Shown here piece after piece: positions 13,571-25,412 of a stretch of 64,000 nt of DNA. The position numbers and the translations under genes were made by a program. The DNA comes from Streptomyces sp. NBC_00683 (GTDB lineage Bacteria > Actinomycetota > Actinomycetes > Streptomycetales > Streptomycetaceae), in contig NZ_CP109013.1 of assembly GCF_036226745.1 (NCBI RefSeq), forward strand, positions 3,100,001 through 3,164,000, written 5' to 3'. The notes under the pieces are model-generated. The model did no database searches, had not been told where the DNA came from, and worked only from the letters and a program-made list of their open reading frames with translations. Positions within the stretch are counted from its first letter, which is position 1; each line of letters starts with the position of its first letter.

Positions 13571-14749
13571 CTAGTAGACCGGCTTCTCGGGCTCGATCTG
13601 GTGGACCCAGCCGATCACGCCGCCGCCCACGTGCACCGCGTCGGCGAAGCCCGCCGACTTGAGGACCGCGAGGACCTCGGCGCTGCGGACACCCGTCTTG
13701 CAGTGCAGGACGATGCGCCTGTCCTGCGGAAGGTCCTGAAGCGCGTTGCCCATCAGGAACTCGTTCTTCGGGATCAGCTTGGCGCCCGGGATCGAGACGA
13801 TCTCGTACTCGTTCGGCTCGCGGACGTCGATGATCTCGATCTTCTCGTCCCCGTCGATCCACTCCTTGAGCTGCTTGGGAGTGATCGTGGAGCCGGCCGC
13901 CGCCTCCTGGGCCTCCTCGGACACGACGCCGCAGAAGGCCTCGTAGTCGATGAGCTCGGTGACGGTGGGGTTCTCGCCGCAGACCGCGCAGTCCGGGTCC
14001 TTGCGGACCTTGACCTGGCGGTACTGCATCTCCAGGGCGTCGTAGATCATCAGCCGGCCGACCAGCGGGTCGCCGATGCCGGCGAGCAGCTTGATGGCCT
14101 CGTTGACCTGGATGGAGCCGATGGACGCGCAGAGCACGCCCAGGACACCGCCCTCGGCGCAGGACGGGACCATGCCGGGGGGCGGCGGCTCCGGGTAGAG
14201 GCAGCGGTAGCAGGGACCGTGCTCGGACCAGAAGACGGACGCCTGGCCGTCGAAACGGTAGATCGAGCCCCAGACGTACGGCTTGTTCAGCAGGACCGCG
14301 GCGTCGTTGACGAGATAGCGGGTGGCGAAGTTGTCCGTGCCGTCCACGATCAGGTCGTACTGGGCGAAGATGTCCATCACGTTCTCGGCTTCGAGCCGCT
14401 CCTCGTGAAGGACGACGTTCACCAGCGGGTTGATACCCAGCACCGAGTCCTTGGCCGACTGGGCCTTGGACCGGCCGATGTCGGCCTGGCTGTGGATGAT
14501 CTGGCGCTGCAGGTTCGACTCGTCGACCTCGTCGAACTCCACGATGCCGAGCGTGCCGACACCGGCCGCGGCCAGGTACATCAGGGCCGGCGAGCCGAGC
14601 CCGCCGGCGCCGACACAGAGCACCTTCGCGTTCTTCAGCCGCTTCTGTCCGTCCATCCCGACATCCGGGATGATCAGGTGGCGGGAGTACCTGCGGACCT
14701 CGTCGACGGTGAGCTCAGCAGCTGGCTCGACCAAGGGTGGCAGCGACAC
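13571..14749 (-). CDS. moeZ: MoeZ/MoeB adenylyltransferase-sulfurtransferase
   Basis: 392-residue E1-like enzyme that adenylates, then thiolates, the C-terminal Gly-Gly of sulfur-carrier proteins for molybdopterin, thiamine, cysteine or thioquinolobactin-type pathways. The ThiF/MoeB domain has GAGGLG (47-52), a conserved CAEGGVLG Cys (197) and zinc pairs C180/C183 and C254/C257. The C-terminal rhodanese domain ends with HCKTGVRS, whose Cys (about 350) carries the persulfide. Both halves look intact, so it is MoeZ rather than MoeB. The GTG start at 14749 has gaggt six bases upstream. It is the only gene in its unit; the next minus-strand gene ends 84 bases upstream. Cytoplasmic. Confidence 0.93.
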   Translation of the reverse strand: MSLPPLVEPAAELTVDEVRRYSRHLIIPDVGMDGQKRLKNAKVLCVGAGGLGSPALMYLAAAGVGTLGIVEFDEVDESNLQRQIIHSQADIGRSKAQSAKDSVLGINPLVNVVLHEERLEAENVMDIFAQYDLIVDGTDNFATRYLVNDAAVLLNKPYVWGSIYRFDGQASVFWSEHGPCYRCLYPEPPPPGMVPSCAEGGVLGVLCASIGSIQVNEAIKLLAGIGDPLVGRLMIYDALEMQYRQVKVRKDPDCAVCGENPTVTELIDYEAFCGVVSEEAQEAAAGSTITPKQLKEWIDGDEKIEIIDVREPNEYEIVSIPGAKLIPKNEFLMGNALQDLPQDRRIVLHCKTGVRSAEVLAVLKSAGFADAVHVGGGVIGWVHQIEPEKPVY

Positions 14750-14779
14750 AGGAACCTCAACAATGCAGGTGGTCGGTTT

Positions 14780-14800
14780 CTACGTACTTCATCTACGTAC
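14780..14800. promoter_or_regulatory. Paired TACGTA palindromes upstream of moeZ
   Basis: The 8-mer ctacgtac occurs at 14780-14787 and again at 14793-14800. Each contains the palindrome tacgta, and they are 13 bases apart, in the 84-base gap before moeZ. An operator or promoter element is possible; no binding protein is recognised. Confidence 0.35.
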
Positions 14801-14833
14801 GGTTGTTCTGCCGTAACACTGCCACGCCGCTCC

Positions 14834-15658
14834 TCATTCCGAGATACCGGGTCCGATCCGCGAGACAAATTCGTCCCAGTAGCTGGGCAGTGCCGCAAAT
14901 GGGTTCGTTTGTCCTCGTCGGTCGTCACGGTCGGTGAAGAAGATCGTGCCCGCGCCCTGCCACCGGGCGACGCGCATGGCCTCCTCCAGGTGGGTGCGCG
15001 GAACCCCGTGGACGAAGTGGGCGAAGCGGCCCGGCTCGTACGCGGCGGTCCACTCGGCCACCTGCGACCAGCGGTAGTCGGTCCACGGCCCGCGGAAGGT
15101 GACCAGCTGGTCGGCGGCCTCGGCGTAGCCGGGATGCGGGTGGGTGCCGTGCCCCAGGACCAGCATGCCGCCCCCGTCCGCGCTGTCGCTGTCCTCCAGG
15201 AGCGCACCCAGGGTGCTGGTGAGCCGGCGGACCGCCGGGAGGCCGGCGCGCTCGGCGGGGCAGCGGTCGAGGTAGAAGCCGCCGACCCGGTACCAGTCGA
15301 GGAAGGACTGGGCGTCGGCGACCAGTTCCCCGAAGGGGCGGCTGCCGAAGGCCAGGTCGAGGTGGCCGAGCAGCCGGCCGCCCGCCGCCCGTACCGCGTC
15401 GTCGGGAGCCTCTCCGTGCAGGGCCCGTTCCCGGGCGTTACGGAGGCGGCCCGCCGCCTCCAGACAGTGCGGGTCGGGTCGGGCCCCCGGCCCGTTGTCG
15501 ATGTTGAGGACCGCCCAGTGCAGCGGCGTGCCGGGGCGGTTGAGCTCGGCCCACTCGGTGGGGGCGAGCATCGGATGGGCGTAGCCGGGGACGCCGACGC
15601 CGAGCTGTTCGGCGCCGCTGGTCCGCAGGGCGGCGCCGGTACTGGTCAGATACGGCAT
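14834..15658 (-). CDS. Spherulin-4 / GH114-like hydrolase-domain protein
   Basis: 274-residue protein of the spherulation-specific family 4 (TIM-barrel, related to GH114 endo-alpha-1,4-polygalactosaminidase and to the PelA hydrolase domain). Signature segments are WAVLNIDNGPG near residue 48, LLGHLDLAFGSRPF, and VGGFYLD at about 127 where the family normally has vdGiFfDE; here the Asp is followed by Arg, so the second acidic residue of that pair is absent. No signal peptide is visible. ATG at 15658 has ggagg just upstream and overlaps the epimerase gene by 13 bases, indicating translational coupling. Last gene of a presumed polysaccharide operon; a lytic or modifying role on galactosamine-type glycan is inferred from the family. 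Confidence 0.75.
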   Translation of the reverse strand: MPYLTSTGAALRTSGAEQLGVGVPGYAHPMLAPTEWAELNRPGTPLHWAVLNIDNGPGARPDPHCLEAAGRLRNARERALHGEAPDDAVRAAGGRLLGHLDLAFGSRPFGELVADAQSFLDWYRVGGFYLDRCPAERAGLPAVRRLTSTLGALLEDSDSADGGGMLVLGHGTHPHPGYAEAADQLVTFRGPWTDYRWSQVAEWTAAYEPGRFAHFVHGVPRTHLEEAMRVARWQGAGTIFFTDRDDRRGQTNPFAALPSYWDEFVSRIGPGISE

Positions 15659-16611
15659 GCCGCCTCCATCCAGATGTCGGCCAGGGACTCCTCCAGATTG
15701 ATCCGGGGGCGCCAGCCGAGCCGGTCCCTGGCGGTGCGCACATCGGCCTGCTGCCACGCGCCGCAGCCGTCCGGGTAGGGGGACGGGGTCGCGGCGAGAT
15801 GCTCGACGACGGACTCCGCGGAGGTCCGGGGCGCGCCGATCGGGAGCCGGGCGGGAGGCGAGTCCAGCTCGTGGAGAGCGCCCGCGTATCCGGCGACCCT
15901 GGCGAGGACCGCCGCCGCGTCGCGCAGCCTCACGGCCCTGCCGGTGCCGATGTTGACGACGCCCTGGGCGGCGGACAGCGAAGCGGCGTGGACGGCGCGC
16001 GCCACGTCCCGTACGTCGACGAAGTCGCGCTGCACACCGAGGCCGCTGAGCTTGAGCTCGGGGTCGCCGGACTGCATGGCGCGGCGCATCGTCTCGGCGA
16101 GCCTGCCGAGCGGGGAGCCCGCCGGGGTGCCGGGCCCGACCGGCGAGAAGACCCGCAGGACGACGGCGTCCAGGCCGGAGCCGAGGACGAGCTCGGTGGC
16201 GGCGAGCTTGCTGACGCCGTACGGGCCTCCGGGACGGGGCACGGCGTCCTCGGGGGTGGACGAACCGGGCTGCGAGGGCCCGTACTCGGAGGCGCATCCG
16301 ACCTGGACGAGCCGGGCGCTGCAGCCGCTGCGCCGCATGGCCTCGCAGACGGTGGCGACGGCGACGGTGTTGTGGCGGGTGAGGTCGCGTGCGCCGCCGC
16401 GGGTGGCGCCCGCGCAGTTGACGACGACTCCGGGGTGGACCGCGTCCAGGAAGCGGGTGAGCGCTCCGGGACTTCCGCCAGCGAGGTCGAAGCGTACGTC
16501 GGCGTCGTCGCCGCGGCCGAGCGCCGTGAGGTGCACGGCGGGGTCGGCGAGCAGGCGGTCGGCGACGAAGCGGCCGAGGAATCCATTGGCTCCGAGCAGC
16601 AGAACCCTCAT
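15646..16611 (-). CDS. NAD-dependent sugar epimerase/dehydratase
   Basis: 321-residue extended short-chain dehydrogenase. GANGFLG at residues 7-13 is the Rossmann nucleotide-binding loop, YGVSKLAATE carries the catalytic Tyr-x3-Lys, and the C-terminal half has the nucleotide-sugar features RDFVDVRDVARAV and VNIGTGRAV. The family converts UDP- or dTDP-sugars, e.g. 4-epimerases. It sits inside the putative polysaccharide operon. Its ATG overlaps the stop of a 19-codon ORF by ATGA, and its end overlaps the spherulin-4-like gene by 13 bases. A UDP-GlcNAc/GalNAc 4-epimerase role would fit a Pel-like pathway, but this is inference from neighbours. Confidence 0.83.
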   Translation of the reverse strand: MRVLLLGANGFLGRFVADRLLADPAVHLTALGRGDDADVRFDLAGGSPGALTRFLDAVHPGVVVNCAGATRGGARDLTRHNTVAVATVCEAMRRSGCSARLVQVGCASEYGPSQPGSSTPEDAVPRPGGPYGVSKLAATELVLGSGLDAVVLRVFSPVGPGTPAGSPLGRLAETMRRAMQSGDPELKLSGLGVQRDFVDVRDVARAVHAASLSAAQGVVNIGTGRAVRLRDAAAVLARVAGYAGALHELDSPPARLPIGAPRTSAESVVEHLAATPSPYPDGCGAWQQADVRTARDRLGWRPRINLEESLADIWMEAACRI

Positions 16612-16667
16612 CGCGCGCCCCCTGAGTGCCGACGGCGGGTTGCCGGTGCGAGGGATTGGGGGGTCAT
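16608..16667 (-). CDS. Possible 19-residue leader peptide upstream of epimerase
   Basis: Short ORF with an aaggag ribosome-binding site nine bases before its ATG (16667). It would encode 19 residues rich in Arg, His and Ser, and its TGA overlaps the epimerase ATG by four bases (ATGA). The arrangement suggests coupling of epimerase translation to this ORF. It fills part of the 133-base gap after the membrane-protein gene. No family is recognised; it may also be a chance reading frame. Confidence 0.4.
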   Translation of the reverse strand: MTPQSLAPATRRRHSGGAR

Positions 16668-16744
16668 GTCCGGTGTCTCCTTGAGGAAGGTGTGGTGCGG
16701 GAGGAAGGTCCGCGGCGTCGGCTCCGCGGATGGGCGTTCTCTGG

Positions 16745-18019
16745 TTACGCCGTGGCGTGGGCGGAAGCCCGGGAGAGCGCGACCGAGGCGTGGATCAGGA
16801 GGCCGAGGGCGGCGACGCCGCAGGCCAGGGTGGGTACTCCTCCGGTGCCGGCCGTCATGACGAGGGCCTCGACGGGCCGGGCGAGGAGGTCGAGACCGGG
16901 CAGCCGCCCGGCCAGGATCAGGAAGGGAGCGGCCACTTCGACGGCGCATGCTGCGGCGAGTCCGGTGGCGGCGGGTTCGGGGAAGCCGTGGACGGCCAGC
17001 AGGCGGGCCAGGAAGAGCAGGGCTCCGAGCGCGGCCGGGGCGAGAGGGGCTCCGCCGCCCCCGTAGCCGAGATCCGCGAGGAACAGCAGGGCGCCCAGCG
17101 CGCACAGGAAGACGGCGACGAGGCCGAGGAGCAGGGGGCGTACTCCGTCACCGAACTCCGCCAGCCCGTGGCTGCCGGCGAGGCGGTCGCGGGCGTGCAC
17201 GGCGAACAGGTGCGCGCACCAGGCGGCGGGGGCCACGGCCAGCGCCAGCCCGAGCACGGGCGCGGGCGCCGCCGCCCAGTGCCCGTCGGGACCACCGCTG
17301 ATGACCTGGCCGAGCAGATCGTCGCCGTACACCGCGTAACCGAGGAGCCAGCAGACGTACAGCGTGACGCCGCCGACGCTGTCCGCGGTGCGCAGGGGGC
17401 CGGTCCGCAGGCAGAGCCGGAGCGCGAGGGCGACGAGCAGCGCCCCGACGGCCGTCACGGCGAACCGCGCCTCCCCGTCGAGGACCCCTTCGGTGGCCCT
17501 GAGCGCCCCGACGGTCGCGAGGCACGCGGCGCCGGGCAGCAGCGCGAGCAGCGTCCAGCCGGCCCGCGCCTCGGTGTCGGGCCCCGGCTGCGGGGCGTCG
17601 GAGGGGGTGGGCCGTACAGCGCCCGGTACGCGGGCGTAGAGCTCCTCCGCGAGGCTGAAGACGTCACGGTGCCGGTAGCGGGCGGCGGTGCGGTCGGTGA
17701 GCCCGTGGGCCTCCAGACCGGCGGCGATCTCCAGGGGGTCGACGGCCCGCTCGCAGAGGTCGCGGTGCCGGTGCATGAGCAGCTTCACGGGGTCGGCGGG
17801 GCCGCGCCGCGCGGCGGGCCTGCGGGCGGGGTGGTAGGCGATCTCGGGTGCGCGGACGCCGGGGGCGGCCGGTTCCGGGGCACCGCCGGCCGGCGACGCG
17901 GACGTCCCGCCGTCCGTGTCGCCGGTGGCCGTGGCGGACAGCGGGTCCGTCGCGGTGGCCTCCGGGGCGCGCTCCGGCAGTGCGGCGGCTCCGGCCCGGA
18001 CGTCGGTCGGTCGGCCCAT
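16745..18019 (-). CDS. Multi-span membrane protein of polysaccharide operon
   Basis: 424-residue protein of unknown family. The first 130 residues are hydrophilic, Ala/Pro/Asp-rich, then a small conserved-looking helical block (HRHRDLCERAVDPLEIAAGLEAHGL). About eight hydrophobic segments follow, e.g. LLALLPGAACLATVGAL, LLLGLVAVFLCALGALLF and ACGVAALGLLIHASVAL. It lies between the PelF-like glycosyltransferase and the epimerase gene, so a role in glycan export or in supporting the synthase is the simplest reading. ATG at 18019 has ggagga six bases upstream; an ATG at 18061 that overlaps the glycosyltransferase stop by eight bases is a serious alternative and would add 14 residues. It has fewer membrane spans than PelG. 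Confidence 0.72.
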   Translation of the reverse strand: MGRPTDVRAGAAALPERAPEATATDPLSATATGDTDGGTSASPAGGAPEPAAPGVRAPEIAYHPARRPAARRGPADPVKLLMHRHRDLCERAVDPLEIAAGLEAHGLTDRTAARYRHRDVFSLAEELYARVPGAVRPTPSDAPQPGPDTEARAGWTLLALLPGAACLATVGALRATEGVLDGEARFAVTAVGALLVALALRLCLRTGPLRTADSVGGVTLYVCWLLGYAVYGDDLLGQVISGGPDGHWAAAPAPVLGLALAVAPAAWCAHLFAVHARDRLAGSHGLAEFGDGVRPLLLGLVAVFLCALGALLFLADLGYGGGGAPLAPAALGALLFLARLLAVHGFPEPAATGLAAACAVEVAAPFLILAGRLPGLDLLARPVEALVMTAGTGGVPTLACGVAALGLLIHASVALSRASAHATA

Positions 18020-18053
18020 CGTGGGTCCTCCGTGGTCATGGCCGGTCAGGTCG

Positions 18054-19862
18054 TCACGCATCGCGGTCCCCCGCTCGGCGTGCGCCCGCGCACACGCCCT
18101 CCTCGGCTCCGACCGCCCAGCTCGGCACCCGGGGGGCGCCCGAAGCCGCCGGGGCGGGAGGCAGGTGGCCCAGCACATGGGCCTCGGGGGGTGTGGCGAA
18201 GGGGCGTGGCGGGCCGTCGGGGTCCTCGGGACCCGCTGTCGCCGCCCATCGGGCCGGGGACTGCATCACGAGGTCCAGATAAATGCCGCGAAATGCCGCA
18301 AGGTTCTGCTCGACGGTGAAGAGTTCGAGCGCCCGGGCACGTGCCGCGGCGCCGAGTCGTGCGCGGCGCTCGGGGTCGCGCAGCAGCGCGACGCAGGCGT
18401 CGGCGAGCGCCCGGGGGTTGCGCGGGGGCACCACGAGCCCCGTACCGCCGATGACTTCGACCACGGCGCCCACGTCCGTCGAGACGGTGGCCCTGCCGCA
18501 GAACATCGCCTCGACCAGGCTGATGGGGAAGCCCTCGACAACGCTGGACAGGACGACGACACCGCCCGCCGCGTAGGCCTCCGCCAGGTCGGGTACCTCG
18601 GGGCCGCCGATCTCCTCGAAGGTGACCGGGTTGTCGCCCACGGCGTGCGCGTCCGTCGCCTCGTCGGGGAAGAGCTGGGCGGCGAGCGCCTTGCAGTGCG
18701 CGAGGTAGGTGTTCCCCTCGCCGCCCTGGGCCGGGGCCCCGAAGATGCGCAGCCGGGCGTCCGGTTCGGCCCGGCGCACCTCGGCGAAGGCGTGCAGCAG
18801 GGCGATCAGGTCCTTGGCGGGTTCGATCCGTCCGATCCAGACGAGCGTGTCCGGACCGCCGTCGTCGTCGCCCTCCCCGACGGCCGCGAAGCGCTCCGCC
18901 TCCATGCCCGGGTAGACCGTGCGCAGCTTGGCGCGGTCGGCCCCGCACCGCTCCTGCCAGCGGCGTACATGGGTGTTGCCGGGCGTGATGACCGCGGCCT
19001 GCCGGTACACCTCGGAGGCCAGCTGCCCGTGGAAGTTGGCCAGCAGGGCGCGCACCGGCGCACCGAACGGCGCCTCGGGCGCGGCCAGATAGTGCGTCCG
19101 CAGCGGTACACCGTGTTCCGTGACCAGCAGCGGTACTCCGAAGAAGCGTTTGGCCAGCAGCCCGGGCAGGGCCGCGGCGCCGCCGGAGGCCGCGTGGCAG
19201 AGGTCGACCGCCCCGAGGCTCTCCTCGTCGTACCAGTCGAGGGAGAGCGGGCGCAGGACGCGCTCCAGTTCGGCGGCGAAGGCGAGGTAGTCGGGGACGG
19301 TCGCGCCGTGCACGGTCCGTCCGGTCCCCGGGGCGCGGCACGCCGACTCCACGATCCGTACGGTCACCTCGGAGCGCAGTGCGGTGTGCAGGCCACCGCG
19401 CTCCCGGGCCAGTTCGGCCAGACCGTAGAGGCCGTCGGTGAAGCGGTCCGCCGACGCGGCGCAGGCGGCCGCCCGCCCGGTGTCCTCGCCGGTCTCCGCG
19501 GCGGCGTCGCCCCCCGCACAGACCGCGTCGACGAGCGCCGTCACGTGCGAGGTGAAGCGCCGCCGGTCGCGCCGCCCGTACGAGCGCCCGAGGCCGGTGG
19601 CGAGCCGGCCGGGCAGCCCTCTCGGACGGAGTCCGTGCCGGGCCTCGTCGTCGTGCGTCCACAGCGGCGCCGTCCGCACCCGCGCGACCCGGTCCGGGAG
19701 CCTCACCCAGCCCTGTTGTTCCTGGTGGGCGGAGCGGCTGAGCGCGAAGAGGTCGAACTCGTGCTGGGGCAGACCGCGCACCAAGCGGTCGCACCAGAGT
19801 CTGGACTCACCGGTCGCATACGGATAACCACCGTCCGTGAGGAGTCCGATCCGCACGAGCAC
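18054..19862 (-). CDS. PelF-like glycosyltransferase (GT4, DUF3492 type)
   Basis: 602-residue retaining GT-B glycosyltransferase. The N-terminus LLTDGGYPYATGESRLWCDRLV resembles the DUF3492 opening of PelF (LLTEGTYPY..GGVSSW), VTEHGVPLRTHYL matches its ITEHG segment, WIGRIEPAKDL is the start of the C-terminal Rossmann domain, and EGFPISLVEAM near residue 440 is the GT4 E-x7-E motif. PelF polymerises UDP-GalNAc/GlcNAc in Pel exopolysaccharide synthesis. GTG at 19862 follows gggaga by about seven bases; a GTG two codons in is also possible. First gene of the operon that continues with the membrane protein, epimerase and spherulin-4-like protein. The C-terminal 70 residues are Pro/Ala-rich and probably disordered. 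Confidence 0.83.
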   Translation of the reverse strand: MLVRIGLLTDGGYPYATGESRLWCDRLVRGLPQHEFDLFALSRSAHQEQQGWVRLPDRVARVRTAPLWTHDDEARHGLRPRGLPGRLATGLGRSYGRRDRRRFTSHVTALVDAVCAGGDAAAETGEDTGRAAACAASADRFTDGLYGLAELARERGGLHTALRSEVTVRIVESACRAPGTGRTVHGATVPDYLAFAAELERVLRPLSLDWYDEESLGAVDLCHAASGGAAALPGLLAKRFFGVPLLVTEHGVPLRTHYLAAPEAPFGAPVRALLANFHGQLASEVYRQAAVITPGNTHVRRWQERCGADRAKLRTVYPGMEAERFAAVGEGDDDGGPDTLVWIGRIEPAKDLIALLHAFAEVRRAEPDARLRIFGAPAQGGEGNTYLAHCKALAAQLFPDEATDAHAVGDNPVTFEEIGGPEVPDLAEAYAAGGVVVLSSVVEGFPISLVEAMFCGRATVSTDVGAVVEVIGGTGLVVPPRNPRALADACVALLRDPERRARLGAAARARALELFTVEQNLAAFRGIYLDLVMQSPARWAATAGPEDPDGPPRPFATPPEAHVLGHLPPAPAASGAPRVPSWAVGAEEGVCAGARRAGDRDA

Positions 19863-19934
19863 ACCCCCGATCTCCCTTGTGGGCGGCCGCCGTTGATCGG
19901 CGACTCACAGCGGGACGACCGTAAGCGGATACGC

Positions 19935-19970
19935 CGGTGGTGCGACGGACGGTTGTCCGTCGCACCACCG
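19935..19970 (-). terminator. Hairpin between ABC importer and polysaccharide operon
   Basis: Perfect 16-bp inverted repeat (19935-19950 with 19955-19970) with a 4-base loop, about 75 bases after the stop of the ABC ATPase gene. It most likely ends the ABC operon and leaves about 70 bases for the promoter of the glycosyltransferase operon; an operator role is the alternative. Confidence 0.6.
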
Positions 19971-20045
19971 AAAGGGGTGAACCACCGTAACTTTCCCGCC
20001 CCCGTCGCGTTCTGTCGCGATAAGGTGCCGTTCGGTTACAGGGCG

Positions 20046-21689
20046 TCAGGCTGCGGCCAGCTCCTTGCGGGCGGCGCGGCGCACGGCCGCACGTGCCGGA
20101 TCGAGCGCCGGAACAGCCGCCAGGAGCTGCTTCGTGTACGGGTCCTGCGGGGATCCGTACACCTCGTCCACCTCTCCCTGTTCGACGATCCGGCCCGCCC
20201 GCATGACCGCCACCCGGTCGCTGACCTGCCGTACGACCGCCAGGTCGTGGGCGATGAAGACCAGGCCGATGCCCAGCTCGCGCTGGAGCTCGGCGAGCAG
20301 CGCGATCACCTGGGCCTGGGTCGTGACGTCGAGCGCGGAGACCGGTTCGTCGCACACGATCAGCTTCGGCTCCGCCGCCAGTGCGCGGGCGATCCCGATC
20401 CGCTGCCGCTGCCCCCCGCTGAACTCGTGCGGGTAGCGCTCGTACCGGTCGGCGTCGAGTCCTACCCTCTCCAGCAGTTCGCGCACCCGGTCCCGGATCC
20501 GTGTCTCGTCGCTCCCGCCCGCCGCACGGAGCGGATCGGCGACGGACTCACCGATCGAGCGGCGCGGGTTGAGCGAGGCGACGGGGTCCTGGAAGACCAT
20601 CTGGAGCTCACGGCGGTGCGGGCGGAGCGCCTTCTCCGAGAGGGAGCCGATCTCCGTACCCCCGTACCGGAGCCGGCCCGCCGTCGGGTCGAGCAACCGC
20701 ACAAGCATGCGGCCGAGCGTCGTCTTGCCGCTGCCGCTCTCCCCCACGATGCCCAGGGTCTCGCCCCGGCGGACGGTGAGCGAGACACCGTCCACGGCCG
20801 TGACCCGGCGTGCGCCCCGGCCGAACTCCCGCCGTAGGCCGACGGCTTCGAGCAGCGGTTCGCCGCCCGCCTCCGCAGCCCTCGGGCCCGGGATCCGCGG
20901 CACGCGTTTCACATCCGCCCGGGGTACCGACGCGAGCAGTTCACGGGTGTACGGCTGCCGGGGCGCACCCAGCACCTCGGCGACCGGGCCGCGCTCCACC
21001 GCGCGCCCGTCCTGCATCACCAGTACGTCGTCCACGCTCTCCGCCGCGACGCCCACGTCGTGCGTGACCAGCAACAGCCCCATGCCCGTCTCGTGGCGCA
21101 GGTCGTGCAGCAGGTCCAGGATCTGGGCCTGCACGGTGACGTCCAGGGCCGTGGTCGGCTCGTCGGCCACGATCAGCTGCGGTTCGCAGGCCAGCGCCAT
21201 CGCGATGAGCGCACGCTGCCGCATCCCGCCCGAGAACTCGTGCGGCCGGAACCCCGCCCGGCGCGCCGCGTCGGGGATGCCGACCCGGTCCAGGACCTCG
21301 ACGGCCCTGGCGCGCGCGGCCCGCCGCGAGGCGGAGGTGTGCACCCGGTACACCTCGGCGATCTGGTCGCCGACCGTGTAGTACGGGTCGAGCGAGGAGA
21401 GCGGGTCCTGGAAGACCATAGCGGCCTTCGCACCCCGCAGCGCCCGCAGTCCGCTCTCGTCCGCGCTGCCCACGTCCGTGCCGGCGACGTGGACGGACCC
21501 GGTGACCCGGGCCCCTGTACCGCGGTGCAGTCCGAGCAGCGCGTACGCGGTCGCGCTCTTGCCGGAGCCGGATTCGCCGACGACGCCGAGCGCGCCGCCC
21601 GCCTCCAGGGTGAACGAGAGTCCGTCCACGGCCCGGACGGTTCCGAAGTCGACGGTGAGGTCCTCGACCCGGATCAGCGGCGTTGTCAT
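20046..21689 (-). CDS. Peptide/nickel ABC transporter, fused double ATPase (DppD-DppF type)
   Basis: 547-residue protein carrying two complete ABC ATPase domains that are separate DppD and DppF subunits in enteric bacteria. The first has GESGSGKSA, FQDPLSSLDPYYTV, SGGMRQR and VADEPTTALDV; the second has GESGSGKTT, FQDPVASLNPRRS, SGGQRQR and VCDEPVSALDV. Each is followed by the oligopeptide-binding C-terminal extension (YTRELLASVP; YTKQLLAAVPAL). Its ATG overlaps the stop of the permease gene by four bases (ATGA). It is the last gene of the binding protein-permease-permease-ATPase operon. It powers uptake at the inner face of the membrane; the substrate is not determined. Confidence 0.93.
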   Translation of the reverse strand: MTTPLIRVEDLTVDFGTVRAVDGLSFTLEAGGALGVVGESGSGKSATAYALLGLHRGTGARVTGSVHVAGTDVGSADESGLRALRGAKAAMVFQDPLSSLDPYYTVGDQIAEVYRVHTSASRRAARARAVEVLDRVGIPDAARRAGFRPHEFSGGMRQRALIAMALACEPQLIVADEPTTALDVTVQAQILDLLHDLRHETGMGLLLVTHDVGVAAESVDDVLVMQDGRAVERGPVAEVLGAPRQPYTRELLASVPRADVKRVPRIPGPRAAEAGGEPLLEAVGLRREFGRGARRVTAVDGVSLTVRRGETLGIVGESGSGKTTLGRMLVRLLDPTAGRLRYGGTEIGSLSEKALRPHRRELQMVFQDPVASLNPRRSIGESVADPLRAAGGSDETRIRDRVRELLERVGLDADRYERYPHEFSGGQRQRIGIARALAAEPKLIVCDEPVSALDVTTQAQVIALLAELQRELGIGLVFIAHDLAVVRQVSDRVAVMRAGRIVEQGEVDEVYGSPQDPYTKQLLAAVPALDPARAAVRRAARKELAAA

Positions 21690-22675
21690 GACAGGACCAC
21701 CCGTCGGTCGGCCAGCGCGTACAGGACGTCCGCGACGGCATTGGCGAGCACCACGAAGAAGCCGGTCACGAGCACCATGCCGACGACCACCGGCAGGTCG
21801 ACGACCTTGACGGCGTGGACAAGTTCGCGCCCGATGCCCGGGATCCCGAAGAGGGATTCGGTGAGGACCGCGCCGCCGAACATGGAACCGAAGTCGAGGG
21901 CGCTGAGCGCGATCACCGGTGCGAGCGCACCGCGCAGCGCGTGCCGCCCGATGATGGCGCGCTCGCTGACCCCGTACGCGCGGAAGGTGCGCACATGGTC
22001 CTCGGCGAGCGTCTCCAGCATGGAGCTCCTGGTCAGCCGGGCGTACTTGGCGGACTCGATGAGGGCGAGGGACACCCAGGGCAGCAGCAGCCCCCAGGCC
22101 CACTGTTCGGGGTCCTCGGCGAACGGCACGTAGGTCGGCGACGGCAGCCACTGGAGGGTGGAGCAGAAGACGATGATGAGCAGCAGCCCGATGACGAACA
22201 CGGGCGTGGCCGTGCCGGCCAGGGTCAGCCAGGTCAGCACCCGCTCGGTGATCCGGCCCCGCCGCCAGGCGGACAGCACTCCCGTACCGACGCCGAGCAG
22301 GACCCAGCCGGCGAACGCGCCGATGACGAGCGATCCGGTGACCGGCAGTTTGGCCAGGATCAGCTGGGTGACCTGCTGGTCGCTCTGGTACGAGACTCCG
22401 AGGCAGGGCGCGGGGCAGTGCTCGGTGCCCGTCCCGGTGGAGTAGTCGTGCCCGGCGACGATGCCCTGGAGGAAGTGCCAGTACTGCGTGTACACCGGGT
22501 CGTCGAGCCGGAGCTGTTCGGTGACCTGGGCGACCTGTGCGGGCGAGCAGCGCGGACCGCAGGCGATCTGGGCGACGTCGCCGGGGGCGACGTAGAAGAC
22601 CGCGTACAGGATGACGGTCAGGGAGAGGAGTACGAAGACGGCGCCGCCGATGCGCCGCAGCAGGAATCCGGTCAC
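21686..22675 (-). CDS. ABC transporter permease, DppB type
   Basis: 329-residue membrane permease. It opens with the DppB/NikB signature (FLLRRIGGAVFVLLSLTVI..VAPGD) and contains the EAA-loop region (RAYGVSERAIIGRHALRGAL) and FGIPGIGRELVHAV near the C-terminus. About six membrane spans are visible. An extracytoplasmic insert with four Cys (CGPRC; CPAPC) between the first two spans is longer than in E. coli DppB and may form disulfides. GTG at 22675 overlaps the end of the preceding permease gene by four bases, and its stop overlaps the ATPase start, so the three are translationally coupled. Note the order: the C-type permease comes first. Confidence 0.92.
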   Translation of the reverse strand: MTGFLLRRIGGAVFVLLSLTVILYAVFYVAPGDVAQIACGPRCSPAQVAQVTEQLRLDDPVYTQYWHFLQGIVAGHDYSTGTGTEHCPAPCLGVSYQSDQQVTQLILAKLPVTGSLVIGAFAGWVLLGVGTGVLSAWRRGRITERVLTWLTLAGTATPVFVIGLLLIIVFCSTLQWLPSPTYVPFAEDPEQWAWGLLLPWVSLALIESAKYARLTRSSMLETLAEDHVRTFRAYGVSERAIIGRHALRGALAPVIALSALDFGSMFGGAVLTESLFGIPGIGRELVHAVKVVDLPVVVGMVLVTGFFVVLANAVADVLYALADRRVVLS

Positions 22676-23679
22676 GACGCCCGCCCCTTCGAAGGTTCCT
22701 TGCGCTCCTTGCGTCCGGTGCCGATCCGCAGCCGGGACGCGGCCCGCGGGTCGAGAGCCGTGCGGACGCCCTCGCCGAAGACGGTCAGGGCGAGCACGGT
22801 GACGAAGAGGAGCCCGGCCGGCAGCAGCAGATAGGTGGGGGCCGACTGGTACCAGGTGTCCGCCTCGGTGAGCATCTGCCCCCAGGACGGTGTGGGCGGT
22901 TTGATGCCGACGCCGAGGAAGGACAGGGCAGCCTCGACGGTGATGTTGACGGGGAAGAGCAGCGCGGCGTACGTGATGACGGGCGCGGCGAGCGAGGGCA
23001 GCAGTTCGCGCCGGGCGACGCTCCATTTCCCGCGTCCGCTCAGCCTGGCCGCCGCGACGAAGTCGAGCGACTTCAGGCTGAGCGCCTGGGCACGCACGAT
23101 CTTCGACGTGCCGGCCCAGTTGATTCCGCCGATGACCAGGGCGATCAGGACGGGCCGGGGGAAGGCGGGCGGGACGATCGCGAGGAGTCCCAGGGCGATG
23201 ACCATGAGCGGCAGGGCGACGTTGATGTCGGTGATCCTGCTGAGGACCTGGTCGACCCAGCGGTTGCCGAGTGCCGCGGCGAGTCCCACGACGAGGCCGA
23301 TGGCGACCTGCAGGAGGGTGGCGACGACGGCGACGCCGAGGGAGACGCGGGCTCCGTAGACGACGCGGGCGAAGAGGTCTCGGCCGGTCTGCGGTTCGAC
23401 ACCGAGCCAGTGCTCGGCGCTGATGCCGCCGAAGGGTCCGATGGGCACCCCGCCGGCGGCCGAGTCGACGAGGTCGGGGTGGTAGGTGTTGGGGTCCTGG
23501 CCCGCGAGCGCGGTGAGCAGCGGCGCGGCGAGGGCGGCCAGGATGAGCAGGAGGACCACGACCGCCGCGGCGGTGGCCGCGCGCTGTGCGCGCAGCCGCT
23601 GCCGGAACTGCCGGGCCCCCGAGGCGGGAGCGGCCACCGGGGCCGCTCCCGCCTCCTGGACCAGAAGTGCTTCCGACAT
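22672..23679 (-). CDS. ABC transporter permease, DppC type
   Basis: 335-residue membrane permease of the OppC/DppC family. A basic cytoplasmic N-terminus (RQFRQRLRAQR) precedes the first span. HWLGVEPQTGRDLFARVVYGARVSL is the family signature. The EAA loop is AARLSGRGKWSVARRELLPSL, and LSFLGVGIKPPTPSWGQML follows near the C-terminus. It pairs with the DppB-type protein encoded next. The ATG at 23679 is only two bases from the stop of the binding-protein gene, so the whole set is one operon. A basic C-terminal tail follows the last span. Substrate is likely a small peptide or similar solute. Confidence 0.92.
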   Translation of the reverse strand: MSEALLVQEAGAAPVAAPASGARQFRQRLRAQRAATAAAVVVLLLILAALAAPLLTALAGQDPNTYHPDLVDSAAGGVPIGPFGGISAEHWLGVEPQTGRDLFARVVYGARVSLGVAVVATLLQVAIGLVVGLAAALGNRWVDQVLSRITDINVALPLMVIALGLLAIVPPAFPRPVLIALVIGGINWAGTSKIVRAQALSLKSLDFVAAARLSGRGKWSVARRELLPSLAAPVITYAALLFPVNITVEAALSFLGVGIKPPTPSWGQMLTEADTWYQSAPTYLLLPAGLLFVTVLALTVFGEGVRTALDPRAASRLRIGTGRKERKEPSKGRAS

Positions 23680-23681
23680 GG

Positions 23682-25412
23682 CTACTTGACCGCGACCTGG
23701 GAGATGTCGAGGACGCCGGTCCAGTCGCTGATGACGACGTTCTTGATGTCCTGGCCGAAGAGCCGCTTGTACACCGGGTGGAAGAGCGGCACGGTCAGCG
23801 CCTGCTCACCGATCTTCTTGTCCAGGGCGCCCCAGCGCTGGGCCGCGGCGTCCAGGTCGGTGAGCTTGTTGATCTCGTCGATCTCCTTGTTGACCGACGC
23901 GTCGTTCAGGAAGCCGGTGTTGAAGTTGGCTCCGTCCTTCACGATCTGGCGGCCGTCGAAGATCGGGGCGAGGAACGGGCCGCCGGAGGGCCAGTCGGCA
24001 CCCCAGTGGGCGAGGAAGAAGCCCGGCTCCTTGGAGGCGCTGTGGATGGTGTCGGAGTAGTCGTTGCTCTCCAGGCCCTTGAGCTCGACGGTGATGCCGG
24101 CCTTCTTGAGGGCGGCCTGGAGGGCGGTGGCGATCTCCGGGCTGGTCTCGAAGTCCTTGTCGTTGGAGTGGGTGAGGGTGACGGTCAGGCCCTTGGGGTA
24201 ACCGGCCTCCTTCAGCAGCTCCTTGGCCTTGGCGGCGTTGCCCGTCTCGCCTGCCGGGAAGTGGTCGTAGGGCGTGTATCCGAAGGACTTCTGGTTCGGC
24301 AGGTAGGTGGTGGCGGGCTCGGCGAGCGAGGACCCGCCGGCAGCGTTGACCACCGAGGAGCGGTCGACGGCGTACGAGATCGCCTGGCGCACCTTGGGGT
24401 TGTCGAACGGCTTCACCTTCGGGTTGAAGGCGATGTAGTTGGTGTAGCCGAAGTGGCCGGTGCCGACACGGGCGGCGAGCTTCTTGTCGCCGGAGACCTT
24501 GGCGAGTTCCGCCGGGCCGAGGTTGGTGTCGGTGGTGACGGCGGCGGAGTCGGCGCCCTGGGAGCCGGAGAGGCGCTGGTTGATGACGGCGGAGTCCAGC
24601 CCGGAGCGTACGTCGATCCGGTCCGGGTAGGCCTTGCGCTCCTCGTCGGTGGCGGCCGACCAGTGCGGGTTGCGCTCCAGGACGAGCCGCTCGCCGTCGT
24701 TCTCGTTGGAGACGACCTTGTACGGCCCGGAGGAGACGGGGTGCTCCTCGTACTTGGTGCCCTTGTCCTTGGCCTGGGGCACCGGGGTGGTCTGGGTCTG
24801 CGTGGCGAGGTAGGGGAACTCGCCCTCGGGCTTGTTGAGGTGGAAGACGATGGTCTTCGCGTCGGGCACCTCGATCGAGGCGAGGCCCTTCTTGTCCTTG
24901 TACGGGCCCTGGTAGTCGGCGCCGCCGATGAGCCAGTCGCGCAGGTAGGGCGCGCCGCCGGAGAGTTCGGCGGCGAAGGACCGCTCGATGCCGTACTTGA
25001 TGTCCGCGCTGGTGATCGCGGTGCCGTCCTCGTACTTCAGCCCGTCCTTGAGGGTGTACGTCCAGACGGTGGCGTTCTTGCTGGGCGTGCCCAGGTCGGT
25101 CGCCAGGTCGGGGACGACCTGCGCGCCCGCGGCGCCGTCCTCCCGGTTGCGGGTGGTGAGCGTACGGAAGACGAGGGAGGGGACGTTGCCGCCGCCCGAG
25201 GTGTAGAGGCGCGCCGGGTCGAAGTCCTCCTGCGGGTTGCTGTTGAGGACTGTGAGGGTGCCGCCCTTCTGCGGCTTGCCCCCGGCGCCGGACTCGCCGT
25301 CGCCCTCCGTTGTGTCCTGGGGTCCCGCGCAGGCGGCAAGACCCGCGACCAGGGCGAGGCTGACGGCTGCGGTCGTTGCCACACGACGCGATATGACGGA
25401 CGGCTGACTCAT
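23682..25412 (-). CDS. ABC transporter substrate-binding lipoprotein (DppA/OppA family)
   Basis: 576-residue extracellular solute-binding protein, family 5. The signal peptide ends in lipobox LAAC, so it is a lipid-anchored receptor on the outer face of the membrane. Family features include FDPARLYTSGG, YTLKDGLKYEDGTAITSADIKYGIERSF, VRQAISYAVDRSSVV and the C-terminal LFHPVYKRLFG. ATG at 25412 begins the signal sequence and has gagagg about ten bases upstream; open sequence before it is not signal-like. First gene of the operon. The ligand cannot be named; Streptomyces has many such systems and peptides are the usual substrate. Confidence 0.92.
   Translation of the reverse strand: MSQPSVISRRVATTAAVSLALVAGLAACAGPQDTTEGDGESGAGGKPQKGGTLTVLNSNPQEDFDPARLYTSGGGNVPSLVFRTLTTRNREDGAAGAQVVPDLATDLGTPSKNATVWTYTLKDGLKYEDGTAITSADIKYGIERSFAAELSGGAPYLRDWLIGGADYQGPYKDKKGLASIEVPDAKTIVFHLNKPEGEFPYLATQTQTTPVPQAKDKGTKYEEHPVSSGPYKVVSNENDGERLVLERNPHWSAATDEERKAYPDRIDVRSGLDSAVINQRLSGSQGADSAAVTTDTNLGPAELAKVSGDKKLAARVGTGHFGYTNYIAFNPKVKPFDNPKVRQAISYAVDRSSVVNAAGGSSLAEPATTYLPNQKSFGYTPYDHFPAGETGNAAKAKELLKEAGYPKGLTVTLTHSNDKDFETSPEIATALQAALKKAGITVELKGLESNDYSDTIHSASKEPGFFLAHWGADWPSGGPFLAPIFDGRQIVKDGANFNTGFLNDASVNKEIDEINKLTDLDAAAQRWGALDKKIGEQALTVPLFHPVYKRLFGQDIKNVVISDWTGVLDISQVAVK

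Follow-up and report, generated by a model that had tools for sequence, protein, structure and literature searches.

Genes and families of the locus

The window analyzed here is a stretch of 64,000 nucleotides from Streptomyces sp. NBC_00683 (assembly GCF_036226745.1, contig NZ_CP109013.1, positions 3,100,001 to 3,164,000). Its reverse strand carries four genes, referred to here as locus A, that encode a PelF/DUF3492-type GT4 glycosyltransferase (GT_A; 18054..19862), a membrane protein with a conserved N-terminal helical domain and eight transmembrane helices that appears to be a reduced MOP-like protein (MEM_A; 16745..18061), an extended short-chain dehydrogenase/reductase (SDR) of the NAD-dependent sugar-nucleotide enzyme type (EPI_A; 15646..16611), and a Spherulin-4 protein of the GH135 fold (SPH_A; 14834..15658). 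An earlier note, made from the sequence alone, had described these genes as a compact Pel-like exopolysaccharide operon. The comparisons reported here suggest that they are a reduced and repurposed paralogue of operons that synthesize polymers of the galactosaminogalactan (GAG) type. No published description of locus A was found, most subscription journals and supplements lying outside the literature searched.

Family models support much of the original naming of the genes. GT_A matched Pfam DUF3492 (PF11997; 96.8 bits) together with GT4 domains, and the NCBIfam PelF model (NF038011) scored 110.7 bits against a cut-off of 100 and was the top match among those of NCBIfam; the profile search that the earlier note had proposed therefore upholds a PelF-like glycosyltransferase (GT), and no other GT4 family scored better. 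EPI_A matched PF01370 (127.1 bits). SPH_A matched Spherulin-4 (PF12138, GH135; 69.3 bits, cut-off 30.2), so that the first half of its earlier label, "spherulin-4/GH114-like", holds while the GH114 half was rejected by Pfam. MEM_A reached the cut-off of no Pfam or NCBIfam family; an AlphaFold2 model has eight long helices, in agreement with the predicted eight spans, and a Foldseek search with that model returned nothing at E <= 0.001. The four genes are co-directional, as noted earlier, and two junctions overlap: the ATG of MEM_A lies inside the end of GT_A, giving an 8-bp overlap with the GT stop, and EPI_A overlaps SPH_A by 13 bp; the same spacing recurs in 43 of the 46 loci in which both genes were called. 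The description of the operon as overlapping does not extend to MEM_A and EPI_A, which are separated by 133 bp. Chance open reading frames are ruled out by conservation of the genes over many genomes.

A fuller paralogous operon and the altered features of locus A

Among 37 Streptomyces genomes (the same-genus sample, which includes the genome studied here), the GT search also matched paralogues with 44-51% identity in 19, and these define a second locus, termed locus B. A total of 24 further stretches were fetched, of which 23 carry locus-B genes (the 19 genomes supplied 21, and G057, a genome of another family, two) and one (L047) carries a lone Spherulin-4 gene only. Locus B encodes an Agd3-like deacetylase, a GT, a 12-span MOP-fold membrane protein, Spherulin-4, and often GH114. 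Twenty same-genus stretches, some cut by contig ends, include the Spherulin-4 gene (loci among L032-L044, L048-L051, and L088-L091), and they follow two layouts. Layout B1 (9/20) has the order Agd3-like secreted protein, GT, membrane protein, SDR, nucleotidyltransferase, a second SDR homologous to EPI_A, and Spherulin-4; layout B2 (11/20) lacks the sugar-nucleotide genes (both SDRs and the nucleotidyltransferase). The gene caller found GH114 in 13 of the 20 stretches and the Agd3-like gene in 19. In one B1 locus, Pfam returned DUF3492 (202.7 bits), Spherulin-4 (109.5 bits), and GH114 (278 bits); the B1 GT passed the NCBIfam PelF cut-off (163.8 bits), the first SDR is a LegB-like 4,6-dehydratase (453.7 bits, just below the cut-off of 475), and the membrane protein was modelled as a 12-helix MOP-fold protein. 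The Agd3-like label is a weaker one, because it rests on weak family matches plus gene context: Agd3_CE matched 14 of 16 such proteins at a loose E <= 0.1 (best 9.2e-7), CBM87_Agd3 matched six of the 16, and the PDB at E <= 1 gave nothing for one Agd3-like protein nor for a profile of all 16.

Locus B is a known operon type. Agd3-type (CE18) operons of bacteria were already described in 2020 (Bamford et al., PMC7229062), where genes for a cytoplasmic GT, a membrane protein with multiple spans, GH114, and, in some Actinobacteria, Spherulin-4 accompany the Agd3 homologues. The locus-B model suggests that the "multi-spanning membrane protein" of these operons is a MOP-fold protein and likely the PelG counterpart. 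The genome studied here has one DUF3492 match and one GT match at E <= 1e-20, and thus locus A only. A locus of G057 (L045) combines a true GalE, a GT, a membrane protein, and GH114 with an Agd3-like protein that bears fibronectin repeats and with two Spherulin-4 proteins, one of which has a signal-like N-terminus.

In a GT tree, all 50 A-type sequences form one clade beside locus B (one of 51 rows was dropped). Every locus-B GT that could be scored at a given position retains the residue expected there, namely the Gly-Gly of the donor loop, the His, the Arg, the Lys, and the two Glu of EX7E (22 or 23 of 23 copies); GT_A likewise has the Arg, the Lys, and EX7E, with Glu replacing the second donor-loop Gly (TGES). 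In GT4 enzymes such as PimA, the donor-loop Gly contacts the donor phosphate. At this position the 35 same-genus A copies have Glu (20), Asp (12), Gln (1), Ala (1), or a gap (1). A second sample of named loci, the best 80 of 293 relatives (79 Streptomyces and one [Kitasatospora] papulosa) and overlapping with the first set, gave 62 readable motifs with Glu (56), Asp (4), or Gln (2). These residue counts, like the membrane-protein lengths, were taken from stop-to-stop frames; the gene caller used for the Spherulin-4, SDR, and sister-genus NCBIfam results sometimes truncated starts.

Profiles of MEM_A and the locus-B membrane protein matched each other at 99.7%, and four of the twelve locus-B helices have no counterpart in MEM_A. 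PelG is a member of the MOP superfamily, together with Wzx, MurJ, and MATE. The earlier suggestion that the membrane protein may replace PelG is thus given a more specific form, in that MEM_A, as modelled, probably stands in PelG's place with a MOP-like fold.

The Spherulin-4 protein is altered at a catalytic position. A search of SPH_A against the PDB with phmmer gave chance ribosomal matches only; a profile built from 18 locus-B and two secreted-type copies found Sph3 (5C5G, 5D6T) at E ~2e-28, with "GvFlDq" aligned on "GIFFDE" and "VtFEg" on "VVFEA". The two acidic residues lie 56 apart by hand count on the Sph3 alignment, which fits Glu222 plus an Asp at 166; the part of PMC12054363 available here gives the catalytic pair as Asp196/Glu222. 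On the alignment to 5C5G and that paper, the Glu column is taken to be the acid/base (Sph3 Glu222), with the Asp numbering in disagreement. This Glu is kept in all 21 locus-B and both secreted-type copies, in none of 34 locus-A copies, and in one of 41 (L099) when more genera are included. It is replaced by Arg in SPH_A and by Asp in L101, and the 80 named loci have Arg (35), Ser (29), Gln (13), Cys (1), Asn (1), or Ala (1), and never Glu. The Asp is retained in 34 of 41 locus-A copies and 51 of 80 named loci. By eye, no signal peptide is visible in SPH_A or in the locus-B Spherulin-4 copies. SPH_A is therefore probably a pseudo-glycosidase, and the glycan hydrolase activity that the earlier note attributed to it is not borne out. 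Its dN/dS against eight relatives is 0.16-0.24, indicating maintenance by purifying selection in those relatives, and many of its columns and a C-terminal motif are nearly invariant.

EPI_A, the remaining product, looks to be the sole component of locus A that is fully intact, to judge from its residues. Its own GxxGxxG and YxxxK motifs are intact. Among 54 SDR copies, the GxxGxxG motif is present in 54, and the Tyr and Lys of YxxxK in 53 and 54, respectively. The position of the GalE Ser, a correspondence taken from the alignment rows of L045 and L046, is Cys in 43 (EPI_A among them) and Ser in 11. No NCBIfam model reached its cut-off; the GalE model (TIGR01179) scored 34.5 against a cut-off of 262.3 (the GalE of L045 scores 337), and the closest PDB sequence match is a GDP-6-deoxy-D-lyxo-4-hexulose reductase (79.3 bits). 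The GalE-type identity was rejected on this score, and the UDP-sugar epimerase that had been proposed is not supported.

Conservation and genomic context

Locus A is near-universal in Streptomyces. The SDR was matched at E <= 1e-137 in 34 of the 37 same-genus genomes; the others are G001 (79% complete), G010, which carries fragments of the genes for the GT and the membrane protein, and G017, where a Spherulin-4 copy adjoins moeZ at a contig end and the SDR may for that reason only be unassembled. At E <= 1e-100, the SDR was matched in 187 of 200 Streptomycetaceae genomes and 14 of 17 genera. For 12 of the 13 family genomes without a match, the GT served as the next query: three genomes each of genera g15 and g18 had nothing at E <= 1e-15, the g28 genome had a match at 2e-115 and the g20 genome a fragment, and four g27 genomes gave matches of 1e-84 to 5e-94 that may be of the locus-B type. 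Among 24 genomes from outside the genus in the first sample, matches to the membrane protein, and to the GT at E <= 1e-20, occurred in G057 only.

Genes were called in 63 A-type loci, including the one described here. The SDR and moeZ are both present in 60, and in every one of these they point the same way and are separated by no more than one gene. The full set of four was called in 44 of these 60; Spherulin-4 was uncalled in 14, and the GT and the membrane protein in four each. L086, without either of the last two, is a short contig, and L107 may be a miscall. Where Spherulin-4 is gone, the gap between the SDR and moeZ is 111-256 bp, and remnants of 23 and 37 residues were seen in L061 and L095. 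Spherulin-4 was counted from the fetched loci because a whole-genome search with PF12138 missed the SPH_A copy itself. The survey thus agrees with the earlier expectation that the cluster is conserved as a unit, gene order being kept.

The next gene downstream, moeZ (ThiF plus rhodanese by Pfam; 13571..14749, reverse strand), lies 84 bp from SPH_A and is probably a neighbor rather than a part of the locus. It lies downstream of the SDR in all 60 loci that have both genes (13571-14749; loci L052-L117). In S. coelicolor, moeB is SCO5178 (PMC4340878), and locus A would by synteny be expected among the genes beside it. On the other side, the alignment defines a conserved intergenic block 5' of GT_A (19863..20020, approximate bounds, reverse strand) with a presumed promoter and a perfect 16-bp hairpin with an AACC loop (19935..19970, reverse strand) that is conserved in many relatives. 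The block aligned in 40 of 69 collected sequences. Of 57 loci, 25 have the two motifs that flank the hairpin, and in 22 of the 25 these motifs enclose an inverted repeat of 8 bp or more. The hairpin seems tied to GT_A rather than to the dpp genes upstream, because in seven of the 25 the upstream gene is one other than dpp. It is a candidate terminator or regulatory element; no Rfam match above the gathering score was found over 14700-20300, and a known Rfam family was accordingly rejected. The upstream ABC-transporter genes (20046-25412) were called dpp by eye from their translation, and a dpp-type operon is present or absent upstream of locus A depending on the genome (L053, L055, L056, L060, L063).

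Origin of locus A and comparison with known systems

The GT, the membrane protein, and Spherulin-4 share descent with locus B, and processing enzymes and catalytic features are lost; for these reasons locus A very probably derives from an ancestor of the Agd3/GAG type. That it is an old, Streptomycetaceae-wide paralogue of a GAG-type synthase operon, stripped of polymer processing and repurposed, is the preferred reading, with a probability of about one half. Its product is most likely a small glycan made or bound by a non-hydrolytic membrane complex and not an exported cationic N-acetylgalactosamine (GalNAc) polymer. In Streptomyces, MEM_A would hold the GT at the membrane, and the sugar that the GT transfers would come from an altered donor that the SDR provides or modifies. 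The Spherulin-4 barrel, remaining in the cytosol, would act as a subunit or sensor that binds the glycan and leaves it uncut. The outcome would be a glycan that is short or lies close to the membrane, or else a signal of glycan presence, and not a GalNAc polymer that is deacetylated and exported. In those genera whose GT has probably lost activity, a scaffold or sensor role and the SDR are all that would remain.

One observation weighs against this mechanism: 29 of the 35 same-genus A copies, GT_A among them, retain all four catalytic residues (Arg, Lys, Glu, and Glu). Among 16 A-type GTs from other genera these four residues are kept in seven and lost in nine, and four g27 copies have Ala, Arg, Gln, and Asp in these positions. 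The PelF model scored 22-67 on eight other-genus GTs, with 97 in L099, all below the cut-off. On these counts, the GT has probably kept its activity in most Streptomyces and lost it in several sister genera. A more radical proposal, offered only tentatively, is that locus A encodes a family-wide pseudoenzyme complex, in which a non-cutting Spherulin-4, a GT4 drifting toward a pseudo-glycosyltransferase, and a shortened flippase would surround an active SDR and together sense a glycan or a sugar nucleotide at the membrane.

The original proposal, in which a compact Pel-like operon is functional and both makes and exports a third surface polysaccharide of Streptomyces, with MEM_A replacing PelG, PelD, and PelE and with trimming by Spherulin-4 or unlinked enzymes, is unlikely. 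It draws support from the GT score above the PelF cut-off, from the retention of the four GT residues in Streptomyces, from the apparent MOP-like character of MEM_A, and from a GH114 gene elsewhere in the genome (291.8 bits; 6221304-6221948, L198), 3.1 Mb from the locus. The absence of PelG, PelD, and PelE that the earlier note reported was confirmed: PelG (PF16933) has no match in the whole genome (a Thermotoga maritima control was positive), and no GAF, GGDEF, or TPR family was found in the four proteins of the locus, which was the extent of the PelD and PelE search. Neither a PelA deacetylase nor a GH166 family was found in the four proteins plus moeZ, the scope of that search. No Agd3-like CE18 deacetylase and no GH114 was called in A loci, and one locus-B Agd3-like protein had no match in the genome studied here in a search run without a positive control. 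A pel operon proper was rejected for want of PelG and the other Pel components. A working Pel exporter is further opposed by the four missing helices, the loss of the Spherulin-4 Glu (40 of 41 copies; 80 of 80 named loci), an SDR that is not GalE-like, and, in several lineages, a GT that has been altered or has probably lost activity.

About equally doubtful is the possibility that the SDR alone is useful, in ordinary sugar-nucleotide metabolism, and that the genes for the GT, the membrane protein, and Spherulin-4 are carried along in slow decay. The SDR is under very strong purifying selection (dN/dS 0.04-0.07, near the 0.06-0.13 of moeZ), and two loci, L100 and L101, retain it although neither the GT nor the membrane gene was called there and whole-genome GT searches gave weak matches only (best 1.3e-11 and 2.9e-15); the SDR would thus have a role that does not depend entirely on the GT. 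The loss of Spherulin-4 from 14 of 60 loci, the short remnants in two, and the loss of GT active-site residues in other genera fit this explanation as well. However, dN/dS values of 0.16-0.24 for Spherulin-4 and 0.15-0.33 for the GT are too low for neutral passengers in Streptomyces, and the near-invariant Spherulin-4 columns and motif and the conserved gene order likewise argue against decay. That GT_A makes a polymer of a different sugar (6-deoxy or amino) exported by an unlinked transporter is improbable, since locus A has no dehydratase or nucleotidyltransferase and the retained Spherulin-4 fold suggests binding of a GalNAc-type glycan, despite the Gly to Glu or Asp change in 32 of 35 same-genus donor loops, the similarity of the SDR to a 4-keto-hexulose reductase, and the position of its B1 counterpart beside a LegB-like dehydratase and a nucleotidyltransferase.

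Compared with known systems, locus A has in common with CslA/GlxA and MatAB that these concern Streptomyces surface glycans. Those systems use other synthase families, and the earlier statement that the cluster belongs to neither agrees with the Pfam and NCBIfam scans, which placed the four genes in none of them in the course of scans not directed at those systems. The published portions consulted on Gram-positive pelDEADAFG operons (Whitfield et al., 2020, PMC7112168; PMC7112194) describe, as in locus A, a PelF-family GT, a sugar-nucleotide SDR, and a hydrolase-fold gene nearby; locus A differs from them in having no PelG, PelD, PelE, or PelADA, and its hydrolase fold is Spherulin-4/GH135-like rather than PelA-type and is without the acid/base. 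The fungal GAG cluster (uge3, gtb3, sph3, ega3, agd3), as far as covered by the parts of PMC7229062 and PMC11356417 available, follows the same logic of a GT4 synthase with a membrane part, an SDR, and Spherulin-4, and locus A differs from it by having no Agd3 or Ega3 and by an SPH_A without the Sph3 acid/base Glu or a visible secretion signal. Closest are the Agd3/GAG-type operons, which the earlier note had not considered. The two share a homologous GT4 adjoining a multi-span membrane protein and a Spherulin-4 gene, as well as, in subtype B1, an SDR homologous to EPI_A; they differ in that locus A has no deacetylase, no GH114, a membrane protein of eight rather than 12 helices, and a Glu-less Spherulin-4. 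The cluster is easily misread as a Streptomyces Pel or GAG operon, because family models call PelF and Spherulin-4. A near-universal locus thus keeps a probably non-catalytic hydrolase fold under selection while the fuller locus B occurs in 19 of the 37 same-genus genomes sampled, and the stripped and full loci form a natural pair for defining the roles of the cytosolic Spherulin-4, the membrane protein, and the GT in GalNAc-polymer synthesis.

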